From contig QZJL01000052.1 of assembly GCA_003599745.1 (NCBI GenBank), positions 1 through 41,241 on the forward strand: a stretch of DNA of 41,241 nucleotides, in the 5' to 3' direction. Positions within the stretch are counted from its first letter, which is position 1. Each line of letters starts with the position of its first letter. The notes under the pieces were generated by a model. That model saw only the letters and a program-made list of their open reading frames with translations, was not told the DNA's origin and searched no databases. Shown piece after piece: positions 1,478 through 4,717 of this stretch. A program made the translations under genes and the position numbers. This DNA is from Dehalococcoidia bacterium (GTDB lineage: Bacteria; Chloroflexota; Dehalococcoidia; Dehalococcoidales; SURF-40).

Positions 1478-1945
1478 GTGCCCAGTGTAGAAAAGGCCAG
1501 AATATCGGACGTCACACAGATTCATCAGATTATTAACGCCTTTGCCGCTAAGGGTGTGATGCTGCCCCGTCCTTTGAGCGAGTTGTACGAAAACATCCGT
1601 GATTACGTCGTGGTGCGCGCGGGGGAGCAGGTGACGGGCTGCGCTGCCCTTCACGTCAGCTGGGACGATACCGCCGAAGTGCGGTCGGTGGCGGTCGTTG
1701 ATGAAAAGCAGCGTCAGGGCGTTGGCTCGGTTCTCGTCAAAGCCTGTCTCGACGAGGCGAAGGAGCTTGGCATCGCCACCGTCTTTTGCCTGACATACCA
1801 GCCGGAGTTTTTCGAACGTTTCCGTTTTTCCCAGGTGGATAAGATGGAGCTGCCACGGAAGGTGTGGACCGAGTGCTACCACTGCCCCAAGTTCCCCAAC
1901 TGCGATGAGGTGGCGATGGTGTGCCGTCTGGAAAAGGAAGGTTAG
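1478..1945 (+). CDS. GNAT N-acetyltransferase, short ArgA-like type
   Basis: This 155-residue protein has a single acetyltransferase fold. The acetyl-CoA-binding segment VDEKQRQGVGSVLVKACLDEA (about residues 74-94) contains the Q/RxxGxG/A signature. The C-terminal motif KVWTECYHCPKFPNCDE has a CxxC...C arrangement. That cysteine-containing tail is what I associate with stand-alone ArgA-like N-acetyltransferases (N-acetylglutamate synthase type), but the substrate is not proven. Translation starts at GTG 1478, one base after the nadK stop, with AGAGGGG upstream inside nadK. Its position between nadK and a Nudix hydrolase does not fix a pathway. Confidence 0.8.
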   Translation: MPSVEKARISDVTQIHQIINAFAAKGVMLPRPLSELYENIRDYVVVRAGEQVTGCAALHVSWDDTAEVRSVAVVDEKQRQGVGSVLVKACLDEAKELGIATVFCLTYQPEFFERFRFSQVDKMELPRKVWTECYHCPKFPNCDEVAMVCRLEKEG

Positions 1946-1946
1946 A

Positions 1947-2486
1947 TTGGACGAAGAGAAGGTGCTTGCTACCGAGGCCATTTTCGAAGGCCGGGTAGTA
2001 AAGGTAAGGGTTGATAATGTCGAGATGCCTGGCGGCCGCCAGACCACCCGCGAAGTCGTCGAACACGGCGAAGTGGTGGCGGTGGTGGTGATTGACGAGC
2101 AGGGGCAGGTTCTCCTGGAGGAACAGTACCGGGGGGCGGTGGGGAAGAAGCTTCTTGAGATACCGGCTGGCGGTATCGAACCCGGTGAAGACCCCGAGGA
2201 CGCCGTGTGCCGCGAGCTTCGCGAAGAGATTGGGTATCTGCCGCAAAAAATAGAAAAGCTCGGGGGTTTTTACGCCGCGCCGGGCTACTGTACCGAGTAC
2301 ATGCACCTCTACCTGGCGACCGACCTTACTCCCAGCAGGCTCTTTGCCGAGGACTCGGAAGGCATCAGAGTGGTGAAAGTGTCCCTGGAACACGCCGTGG
2401 CCATGGTGATTTCCGGGGAAATCCACGACGGCAAGAGCGTGGCCGGATTACTGCTTTACCTGGCGAAGAAACCTGTCAAGCGATGA
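1947..2486 (+). CDS. Nudix hydrolase, ADP-ribose pyrophosphatase type
   Basis: A complete Nudix box is present: AGGIEPGEDPEDAVCRELRE then EIGY, matching Gx5Ex7REUxEExGU. N-terminal strands (EGRVVKVRVDNVEMPGG) and the EHGEVVAVVVID segment are typical of the NudF/YqiE ADP-ribose pyrophosphatase group, which splits ADP-ribose to AMP and ribose 5-phosphate. I place the start at TTG 1947, two bases after the preceding stop and just behind GGAAAAGGAAGG. The only upstream ATG (1905) would overlap the acetyltransferase by 41 bases and add residues that do not look like the family. The 3' end overlaps the convergent mazF-like gene by 11 bases. Confidence 0.88.
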   Translation: MDEEKVLATEAIFEGRVVKVRVDNVEMPGGRQTTREVVEHGEVVAVVVIDEQGQVLLEEQYRGAVGKKLLEIPAGGIEPGEDPEDAVCRELREEIGYLPQKIEKLGGFYAAPGYCTEYMHLYLATDLTPSRLFAEDSEGIRVVKVSLEHAVAMVISGEIHDGKSVAGLLLYLAKKPVKR

Positions 2487-2811
2487 TTTCATTTAACCCT
2501 TCGACAACCCCAGCCAGTTCTTCCTGAGACAGCCTGCCAATCAGCTTGCCTATTCGCTCGGTGGATAGAGTGCGTATTTGGCTGATTTTAGCCCACGAGC
2601 GCCTGGGTAAATTTCCGGTCTTTAACTCCAGCGTCAGGGGAAAACCAGCCTTTTGCGGCTGGCTGGTGATGGCAATTGCGATGACCGTCCCGGAACGCTC
2701 ATTGAAGACATCGTGACTCAAAACCAGTACGGGACGCAAGCCGGTTTGTTCCCGTCCGATGCCCGGATTCAAGTTAGCCCAGCGCGTCTCGCCTCTTAGT
2801 ATTCCGGCCAT
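2476..2811 (-). CDS. mazF: MazF/PemK-family endoribonuclease toxin
   Basis: This 111-residue protein has the MazF/PemK/Kid plan. It has an N-terminal RGExRWANLNPGIG strand-loop, then GLRPVLVLSHDVFNE (the RPVLVLS core), AIAITSQ, a middle LTLE strand and SWAKISQIRTLSTERIGKLIG near the end. Family members are ribosome-independent mRNA interferases that cut single-stranded RNA at short motifs. The arginine and Ser/Thr around RPVLVLS and AITSQ form the active site in the family. It overlaps its antitoxin gene by 16 bases, indicating translational coupling. The 3' end overlaps the Nudix gene by 11 bases. Confidence 0.9.
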   Translation of the reverse strand: MAGILRGETRWANLNPGIGREQTGLRPVLVLSHDVFNERSGTVIAIAITSQPQKAGFPLTLELKTGNLPRRSWAKISQIRTLSTERIGKLIGRLSQEELAGVVEGLNEIIA

Positions 2812-3038
2812 GCGTTTGCGTCCTCGGCCAGCCCTTCTTCGGCCAGTTTTCTCTCGAAAGCTGGATTAAGTTTGGCGCTCTCGGTTAACAACCGGGTCTT
2901 TTTCAGCCGCTGCAGTTTTTCACTTACCGCTTGCTGAATCGCCTGGCTGCGGTTGGGGAAAATGTTTTCGCTAACCAGCCTGTCCAGTTCGCCGATTGAC
3001 CGTTTATCTAATGTAATCGCAATCTTTTCTTTACCCAT
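2796..3038 (-). CDS. mazE: Ribbon-helix-helix antitoxin, MazE/CopG type
   Basis: This is an 80-residue protein. The N-terminus KIAITLDKRSIGELDRLVSE then NRSQAIQQAVSEKL is the classic ribbon-helix-helix DNA-binding fold: a beta strand followed by two helices with a conserved NRSxAI turn. The C-terminal half, rich in charged residues (KLNPAFERKLAEEGLAEDANAWPEY), would wrap the toxin. ATG 3038 is preferred over the in-frame GTG at 3041 because GGAGGG (3044-3049) then sits 5 bases upstream. It is the first gene of a two-gene operon with the MazF-like toxin and would repress its own promoter, as is usual for the family. Confidence 0.88.
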   Translation of the reverse strand: MGKEKIAITLDKRSIGELDRLVSENIFPNRSQAIQQAVSEKLQRLKKTRLLTESAKLNPAFERKLAEEGLAEDANAWPEY

Positions 3039-3062
3039 CACAACCCTCCATTGGTATTACAT

Positions 3063-3090
3063 ATTATCATACTAATAACTGGTGAATCAA
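3063..3090 (-). promoter_or_regulatory. Promoter of the mazEF-like pair
   Basis: On the minus strand a TTGATT -35 (3085-3090) and a GATAAT -10 (3063-3068) are separated by 16 bases. The -10 lies 25 bases before the antitoxin ATG. The AT-rich repeats around it (ATATTATCATACTAATAACT) could serve as an operator for the ribbon-helix-helix antitoxin. Confidence 0.5.
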
Positions 3091-3153
3091 TATCTGCTCA
3101 GATACATGGAAAAGAACCCACAGGGGATACAAACACTCCTGTTTAAGTTGAGG

Positions 3154-3159
3154 TATAAT
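3154..3159 (+). promoter_or_regulatory. Consensus -10 element for the AT-rich HEPN-like gene
   Basis: A perfect TATAAT lies only 14 bases before the ATG at 3174. The predicted transcript would start about 8 bases before the start codon, leaving no room for a normal ribosome-binding site, and none is seen. The -35 position (around 3131-3136) is not a good match. Confidence 0.45.
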
Positions 3160-3173
3160 TACATCGATATACG

Positions 3174-4343
3174 ATGAAATCCTTTAATACGTTTAGAGTT
3201 GAACTCTCACGCTTGAGGCAGTTGTACTTCTCGGCAAAGTTTGCAACTGATGAAGCAGATTTGTCTATTTCAAGAAAGCTAACGAGTAAGGAACTTAATG
3301 GTAATTCAAAGCTTTACTTTAATGATATAGAAGAAGATGTTTATTTAATTTCTAGCTCTATTTTTGCTTTAAGACACCGGTTAAAAAATCAACTTATCAG
3401 GTATTTGAGAGAACTAATTTTTATTAGGGCTATCTCGGCGTTGGAAGTATTCTTGGTAAGCTCTGTTGAAGAAATATTCCTAATTACAAAAGAACCGTTC
3501 AAAACTAATTCCAACATTGAATTTTTGCAGGCAGAATTGCTATCTGCCGAATCTCTCTCTGATTTGTTCACTAAAATTATCTCAAGAGATTGTAGAAACT
3601 TGCATAGCGGTGGTTTCTACGAGACAAAGAAGTACTATATGAAAACTTTCGGCATCAATTTAGCCGATTGTGTACCTAATTTGGCTCAATTTGAGGAATA
3701 CCATGACCGCCGCCATCTTCTGGTTCATCGACTAGGGGCAACTGACTATGTCTACAGAAAGAAACATAACACCAATATGAAAAAGATTACTATTGAGGAA
3801 GATTATCTTCTATCATCTTTCGAGACCTTGATGGCGTTTGGCAACAAATTAAATGATAAAATATCTTCGACATACACTGTTTCTTCAAAGCGAGAGCAAA
3901 ACCAAGATTGCGCTCATCTTAAGGTTTCGCTGGTTTTTGAGACAGATAATTCAAAGACAACGGTCGTTCCTCAGTTCCAATTTTTGGTTGATGACAAACT
4001 CGTTTTCTTGCGTGACATAATACAATCATGCTCCTACCTAGACGAGCATTCACTTGAATTGGATTTAAAAGGAGCTTCTGCAATCATACGGGCTTACAAG
4101 AGGATCTTAAAGAAGTCTCAGAAAAAGGGCGAACTAACAATTGTTGCGTCGGAATTTAGAGGACCAAGTAAAGTAAAACCTTGCAGCTTGTCTAATAAAG
4201 AAGTGGAGCAAATAATTGCATCTTTGCCTCCAAAACCTTGGCCTAAAGACGTACATAAGGTTATAGCCGCTAAATTAGGTTTTAAAAAGGGGGAAGTCTA
4301 TTCAGCTATACATCAAACTAGTGGCGTTGCAGAGTCTGAATAG
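3174..4343 (+). CDS. AT-rich orphan gene, HEPN-like protein
   Basis: I do not recognise the full protein of 389 residues. The N-terminal half is helical and charged, and contains RRHLLVHR with R180-x4-H185. That is the catalytic R-x4-6-H motif of HEPN domains, which are often RNases in toxin-antitoxin and abortive-infection systems. Hydrophobic helices at residues 79-100 (ELIFIRAISALEVFLVSS) fit a HEPN four-helix bundle preceding that motif. The C-terminal third is different and ends in LSNKEVEQIIASLPP...VHKVIAAKLG, which could be a small helix-turn-helix. Base composition is plainly AT-rich, with AAA, ATT and TTT codons, unlike the flanking GC-rich genes. This suggests recent transfer. It lies divergently beside the mazEF-like pair. 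A defence or toxin role is inference. Confidence 0.7.
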   Translation: MKSFNTFRVELSRLRQLYFSAKFATDEADLSISRKLTSKELNGNSKLYFNDIEEDVYLISSSIFALRHRLKNQLIRYLRELIFIRAISALEVFLVSSVEEIFLITKEPFKTNSNIEFLQAELLSAESLSDLFTKIISRDCRNLHSGGFYETKKYYMKTFGINLADCVPNLAQFEEYHDRRHLLVHRLGATDYVYRKKHNTNMKKITIEEDYLLSSFETLMAFGNKLNDKISSTYTVSSKREQNQDCAHLKVSLVFETDNSKTTVVPQFQFLVDDKLVFLRDIIQSCSYLDEHSLELDLKGASAIIRAYKRILKKSQKKGELTIVASEFRGPSKVKPCSLSNKEVEQIIASLPPKPWPKDVHKVIAAKLGFKKGEVYSAIHQTSGVAESE

Positions 4344-4375
4344 GAACTGCAGCGGACTTGAACCAGTGCTGACTT

Positions 4376-4717
4376 TTATCCCAACATCCCGCTAAGCTGT
4401 CTGCCACCCAGCAGGTGCAGGTGAATGTGGGGGACGCCCTGAGTTCCTTCGGGGCCGCAGTTGATAGCTACCCGGTAGCCCCTTTCGGCGATACCCTCAC
4501 TCTTGGCGAGTTTGTTGGCGACGGCGACCAGGTGACCGAGCAGCCCCGATTTTGATTCGGGGACTTCGGCGAGCGAGGCGATGTGTTCCCGGGGGATTAT
4601 CAGGATGTGCACCGGCGCTTGTGGCTCGATGTCACGGAAGGCGATGACCTCTTTATCCTGATAGACGAACTTGGTCGGTATAGCACCGGCAATAATCTTG
4701 CAGAAAATGCAGTCCAT
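4376..4717 (-). CDS. HIT-family nucleotide hydrolase/transferase
   Basis: This 113-residue protein begins CIFCKIIAGAIPTKFVYQD, the typical HINT-type N-terminus with a CxxC. It ends with the histidine triad VPHIHLHLLGG (HxHxH) followed by a short hydrophobic tail. HinT proteins are small purine-nucleoside phosphoramidases that use the second histidine of the triad as the nucleophile. The length is normal. It is the last gene of the minus-strand carbon operon, 36 bases after isocitrate dehydrogenase, and is convergent with the AT-rich orphan gene, so it marks the right side of the accessory insert. Confidence 0.93.
   Translation of the reverse strand: MDCIFCKIIAGAIPTKFVYQDKEVIAFRDIEPQAPVHILIIPREHIASLAEVPESKSGLLGHLVAVANKLAKSEGIAERGYRVAINCGPEGTQGVPHIHLHLLGGRQLSGMLG

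Follow-up and report, generated by a model that had tools for sequence, protein, structure and literature searches.

The window analyzed here is a contig of 41,241 nucleotides, one of those that make up the 1.56-Mb draft genome of a Dehalococcoidia bacterium. It contains an island of 1,889 bp (positions 2487 to 4375) between the stop codons of two convergent genes, a NUDIX hydrolase gene on the left (1905 to 2486, plus strand), recognized from its sequence and a conserved neighbor at this position, and a HIT-family gene on the right (4376 to 4717, minus strand), present in 34 of 41 genomes. Both belong to housekeeping runs, NADK-GNAT-NUDIX reading rightward and HIT-IDH-LeuD reading leftward. 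Among 29 loci of relatives with an orthologous HIT gene, the two genes converge as in the window at 24, and there the median gap from one stop codon to the other is -2 bp, with 24 bp or less in 18 of the 24 and often a 4-bp overlap. In the window the same gap measures 1,889 bp and is filled by the MazF/RHH pair and the HEPN gene described below. This is a genuine island of two parts, set into a junction that is ancestral, in agreement with the earlier note, which had placed a small island between two housekeeping operons. More than 100 bp are inserted at 6 of the 24 loci, and because the contents differ from one to the next, accessory genes may have landed here repeatedly. The junction offers a clean example of accessory genes captured between converging housekeeping operons. 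In other genomes, the junction harbors genes for a 128-aa membrane-like protein (L038, 1927 to 2313), a 147-aa protein with a subthreshold match to DUF6998 (L052, 1881 to 2324) and a PdxA-like protein (L054, 1892 to 2908), as well as another insert (L064, 1827 to 2171).

The second half of the inserted island consists of a MazF/PemK-like toxin gene (2476 to 2811, minus strand; PF02452, E value of 4.6e-28) that overlaps the upstream open reading frame of its antitoxin (2796 to 3041, minus strand; RHH_8, E value of 1.5e-4, and RHH_1, E value of 1.1e-3, both just under the cutoff). The antitoxin is of the RHH type, not the AbrB type, and the two genes (2476 to 3041) are, judging by these matches, a type II toxin-antitoxin system. 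Divergent to them, 132 bp away, lies the gene under study (3174 to 4343, plus strand), hereafter the HEPN gene, which is found in a single copy in the draft genome and encodes a protein of 389 aa with an exact R180-x4-H185 motif, as originally described. Its GC content is 0.37 and its GC3 is 0.36, compared to about 0.58 and about 0.70 in its neighbors; GC3 amounts to 0.66 to 0.77 in the NADK, GNAT, NUDIX, HIT, IDH, and LeuC genes and to 0.57 to 0.59 in the MazF/RHH pair. The foreign composition that had been noticed here is thus a strong feature of the HEPN gene only and not of the pair, and the difference suggests that the two parts came by two separate arrivals. The HEPN gene itself is real and horizontally acquired. 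Its flanks contained no meaningful repeats.

The same gene had been called an orphan, which turned out to be wrong. A motif-guided scan covered 84,980 species, and full-length relatives with 31 to 54% identity are found in Chloroflexota, Desulfobacterota, and Bacteroidota. They comprise an identical sequence in two Chloroflexi MAGs (L018 and L019, 54%), a Desulfobacteraceae copy (L020, 34%) and, in Bacteroidota, copies from Leeuwenhoekiella (L021), Flavobacterium (L022 to L024, L026, and L027), another Flavobacteriaceae MAG (L025), and Daejeonella (L028). Profile searches added L031 as well as L032, which has no helix-turn-helix (HTH) part. Divergent relatives spanning about residues 72 to 213 (L002, L003, and L007 to L017) were collected from the same class and phylum without any motif pattern. 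The family is rare, with matches in 3 of 351 Flavobacteriaceae genomes, and in its own order only the window's genome, 1 of 151, has the full-length gene; over the three phyla its distribution is patchy. It was absent from the phages, plasmids, and viral contigs scanned (the latter with five query designs), and an exact 8-mer scan of the genome contigs for relatives returned nothing. Ratios of dN/dS between sister copies are 0.05 to 0.16, and the relatives are under purifying selection. The Daejeonella copy (L028, 4968 to 5984) is broken at about residue 308, possibly by an insertion element or an assembly break, and the rest of its C terminus is located on another contig (G767:C23:12074-12337).

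By itself, an R-x4-H motif is weak evidence, since by our own estimate it would occur about 0.3 times by chance in a protein of 389 aa, and it is conservation in relatives that makes it significant. The scan pattern demanded R180 and H181 and stopped before V184 and H185; H185, outside the pattern, is invariant in 11 of 11 full-length relatives. In an alignment of 10 divergent proteins, R180 and H185 are the sole invariant columns of 617. Full-length relatives also have in common H181, the polar residue after the arginine (part of the scan pattern), and an acidic residue, E91 (3444 to 3446), invariant in two family alignments (A9 and A11), while the acidic motif in its E-x3-[KR] form is absent. 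Comparison with hhalign of the family profile to that of nine divergent relatives gave a probability of 98.8% (E value of 1.3e-16) over residues 81 to 234. PF18735 (HEPN_RiboL-PSP) is matched by six of these nine, and L002 and L003 score 22.5 and 25.0, just under its gathering cutoff of 28.4; neither the window protein nor any full-length member of alignment A9 matches it.

AlphaFold models made from 11 to 12 sequences (pLDDT of 77 for the full length and 82 for residues 1 to 243) predict helices at residues 2 to 37, 63 to 105, 128 to 159, 170 to 185, and 209 to 240. The first of them (3177 to 3284) would be helix 1 of a HEPN bundle, whose core, residues 63 to 240 (3360 to 3893), includes helix 2 (63 to 105), an insert (106 to 169), helix 3 (170 to 185), and helix 4 (209 to 240), and so covers the region of residues 80 to 190 where a helical bundle had been anticipated. 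Published HEPN domains have R-x4-6-H at the end of helix 3, usually a polar residue after the arginine, an acidic residue in helix 2 and inserts between helices 2 and 3 (PMC3710099). The predicted model fits these four traits: the motif R180-H-L-L-V-H185 (3711 to 3728) closes helix 3, with H185 as its final residue, H181 is polar, E91 is in helix 2, and the insert is at 106 to 169. Foldseek searches of the PDB with the full-length and HEPN-only models returned no solved HEPN and no significant match at all. Among viral proteins, the best Foldseek match (A0A8S5NVI2) had a TM score of 0.38, 13% identity and an E value of 1.4e-3. PDB sequence profiles likewise gave noise (TPR and Cdc53), with no solved chain matched by the family. 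The assignment of the fold is therefore based on sequence and anatomy and not on a structural match. Of the remote searches proposed in the earlier note, the one for homology reached RiboL-PSP-HEPN-like relatives and the one for structure found no solved HEPN. Altogether, the motif, the profile match, and the predicted helix order support well the initial HEPN reading: residues 81 to 234 appear to be a HEPN-type domain, tied to the RiboL-PSP-type HEPN, for which RNA cutting is probable.

The HEPN domain is followed by two more predicted domains. Residues 246 to 329 (3909 to 4160), the least conserved part of the protein, are modeled as a beta-alpha-beta-beta-alpha-beta fold with weak Foldseek matches (E values of 0.03 to 0.3) to S6, carboxysome CcmK, NikR, and Lrp/AsnC domains, and the label ferredoxin-like is reasonable but not firm. 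Outside Chloroflexota, identity is 14 to 27% in this domain versus 41 to 46% in the HEPN domain, the pattern that one would predict for a sensor whose selection pressures change. The tail, residues 341 to 383 (4194 to 4322), falls within a block common to the relatives, roughly LPxQPWxxxxHKxxAxxLGxSNKxVSxAI, which in them weakly matches HTH_24, HTH_36, and HTH_Crp_2. These matches and the AlphaFold model lend support to the possible C-terminal HTH recorded previously, in the form of a winged HTH (wHTH)-like tail. It is modular, since L032 keeps the HEPN domain without it. A search with the C-terminal half gave only a chance match to FtsH (L005). The NikR and Lrp/AsnC matches, together with the HTH matches of the relatives, would also suit a transcription regulator whose ferredoxin-like and HTH half binds a ligand in the manner of Lrp or NikR, with HEPN as a noncatalytic dimerization domain. 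We regard this as quite unlikely, because, among distant relatives, no other feature is as well conserved as the catalytic pair, the HTH-less L032 has retained its HEPN domain, and the upstream regions of the family have no palindrome in common. The window copy has a shorter wing than the Bacteroidota copies and no clear promoter (site counts were the same as in shuffles), as if it were a decaying remnant without function. This is very improbable: the reading frame is open over its full length, none of the conserved HEPN residues is missing, and the tail is about as short in the closest relative (L018, 54%), whose frame is intact.

Libraries of domains and defense systems do not recognize the window protein: it has no match in Pfam, NCBIfam, PADLOC, or PHROGs beyond subthreshold noise (E1_UFD and RtcB and, in PADLOC, CARF/CasR HTH-like models with E values of 0.009 or worse). 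No study of a HEPN plus ferredoxin-like plus wHTH family was found in the literature searched, and the combination is not among the architectures found in the 2013 HEPN survey (PMC3710099). Within these sources, the unfamiliar domain combination pointed out before is confirmed as a previously unlisted architecture, belonging to an unnamed small family in three phyla. Its nearest HEPN family is HEPN_RiboL-PSP (PF18735; Ribo L-PSP-HEPN of PMC3710099), with which it has R-x4-H in common, but it lacks the L-PSP fusion and the ParB operon and adds the ferredoxin-like and wHTH parts. HEPN and wHTH coexist in one polypeptide in EC042_2821 and MTES_1575, although these have other HEPN families, REase or helicase/Vsr domains and restriction-modification contexts (PMC3710099). 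Tha-1 and Tha-2 of Staphylococcus aureus prophages are also single HEPN proteins, with an R-x4-H needed for antiphage activity, but their HEPN is C-terminal, the N terminus is undefined, and they are prophage borne and activated by tail proteins (PMC11087260). DS-11 is a one-protein HEPN defense with a separate ligand-sensing domain, which is CBS instead of the predicted ferredoxin-like and wHTH parts seen here (PMC13092281).

The loci of L018 to L028 have no neighbor gene common to copies in different contexts, and most relatives are outside any evident defense island. Toxin-antitoxin genes are found near some copies, with Phd-PIN and Phd-ParE pairs flanking L020 and a MazE-PIN pair about 2 kb from L019, and an HTH_3 gene lies about 0.3 kb from L028. 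Added to the divergent MazF/RHH pair 132 bp away in the window, and to HEPN toxins with antitoxins already known (HEPN-MNT, PMC4621449), these neighbors raise the alternative of a selfish addiction gene, a toxic HEPN RNase neutralized by something nearby, be it an unannotated RNA or the neighboring antitoxin, which would turn the window's island into a composite toxin-antitoxin island. We find this rather unlikely: no partner gene is conserved among L018 to L028, the GC3 values suggest separate arrivals, and there is no Rfam match or any other upstream element common to the copies. Since no full-length relative has a MazF/RHH pair beside it, we rejected this pair as a conserved partner of the HEPN gene; the toxin-antitoxin pair that had been reported as mazEF-like is present, but its link to the HEPN gene is not conserved. 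Four copies (L018 and L024 to L026) are found among ordinary metabolic genes, and cassette genes are functionally diverse, which would fit an accessory RNase of RNA processing or stress response that is merely spread by cassettes and has no role in defense or killing. This too is unlikely, as a rare and patchy gene associated with mobile loci is more readily understood as a conflict gene than as one with a core RNA function. In two Flavobacterium genomes, a gene for a 514-aa protein with no Pfam match is located directly 5' of the HEPN gene (L022, 3278 to 4822, and L023, 3273 to 4817), with HTH_3 regulators farther upstream; on the 3' side there are AAA ATPase and NERD-like genes in L022 and DUF6602 and NA37 genes in L023.

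To evaluate cassette-like mobility, we searched for a GTT core upstream of each copy and a complementary AAC core downstream, with 1,000 random window pairs as the null. L024, L025, L027, and L031 have flanking cores of 9 to 10 nt that are exact complements (0 to 1 of 1,000 in the null), and L020 has one of 6 nt (10 of 1,000). The flanks of these five copies appear from their sequence to be the marks of integron-type gene cassettes, while in L018, L021, L022, L023, and L026 cassette cores were not clearly present. In the window, the core match is only 4 nt long (95 of 1,000 in the null), and we rejected the idea that this copy is a present-day integron cassette. In L027 the gene lies between two repeats of 132 nt that are 95% identical, and repeats related to them occur again in the same genomes. 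A HEPN gene as an integron cassette has a precedent in PDB entry 3jrt (PMC3710099), although the present family has no sequence match to any solved chain. The genome that carries L020 (G759) encodes an integron integrase that is genuine (TIGR02249, E value of 9e-133), whereas in the Flavobacteriaceae genomes the matches to TIGR02249 are below the cutoff, split and missing model positions of about 180 to 238. These two-piece matches come from a tyrosine recombinase of about 350 to 395 aa (L079, 6491 to 7534; L080, 8036 to 9220; L081, 4103 to 5146, with L082 and L083), near arrays of small same-strand open reading frames separated by attC-like repeats of 120 to 190 nt. Recombinase and arrays may together make up a cassette platform that resembles integrons but uses another recombinase; in Bacteroidetes, IntegronFinder 2.0 reported hardly any integrons that were complete (PMC9024848).

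Computation recovers a HEPN-type domain with a conserved catalytic pair and two extra predicted domains, in a gene that is mobile and solitary. We give a little better than an even chance to the reading as a stand-alone, horizontally transferred HEPN ribonuclease effector, probably for abortive defense. The toxin-antitoxin neighbors and cassette-like flanks favor it, as integron cassettes are rich in antiphage genes, reported at about 20% of functionless cassettes from the large integrons of Vibrio cholerae (PMC12444791), and so does the existence of single-protein HEPN defenses such as Tha (PMC11087260) and DS-11 (PMC13092281). It is weakened by the lack of a PADLOC match, of a solved HEPN among the Foldseek matches, and of copies in the phages, plasmids, and viral contigs scanned, and by locations mostly outside evident defense islands. 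In such an effector, dimerization would bring two R-x4-H motifs together into a metal-independent RNase site, and the protein would stay inactive until a signal that stems from phage or stress, be it a nucleic acid, a nucleotide, or a protein, is sensed by the variable middle domain and/or the wHTH tail. Once activated, it would cleave host or phage RNA, and growth would halt (abortive defense or dormancy). Because no antitoxin gene travels with the HEPN gene, the switch is probably within the protein itself. We would put somewhat short of an even chance on a broader proposal, in which these proteins form a novel family of immune effectors encoded by one gene each. The HEPN RNase would be governed by a ferredoxin-like sensor and a wHTH reader in the same protein, and the genes would travel as integron-like cassettes, in part through an undescribed flavobacterial cassette platform, and end up in tight gene junctions across phyla. 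If true, an architecture contained in a single gene has been missed by present annotation and defense libraries, and the use of integron-like cassettes as phage defense libraries extends to Bacteroidota and Desulfobacterota.

The divergent relatives contain other arrangements of the HEPN domain. Two Chloroflexota proteins (L014, 1417 to 2463, and L017, 1486 to 2475) combine the HEPN motif KRHLLAHK with an N-terminal part that has several CxxC pairs, probably zinc ribbons. L002/L029, L007, L008, L012, and L015 have in common a helical C-terminal part of another kind, which closes with a motif like W-x-L-x3-LR-x-DP; from its sequence, we take this arrangement as a second undescribed HEPN architecture.
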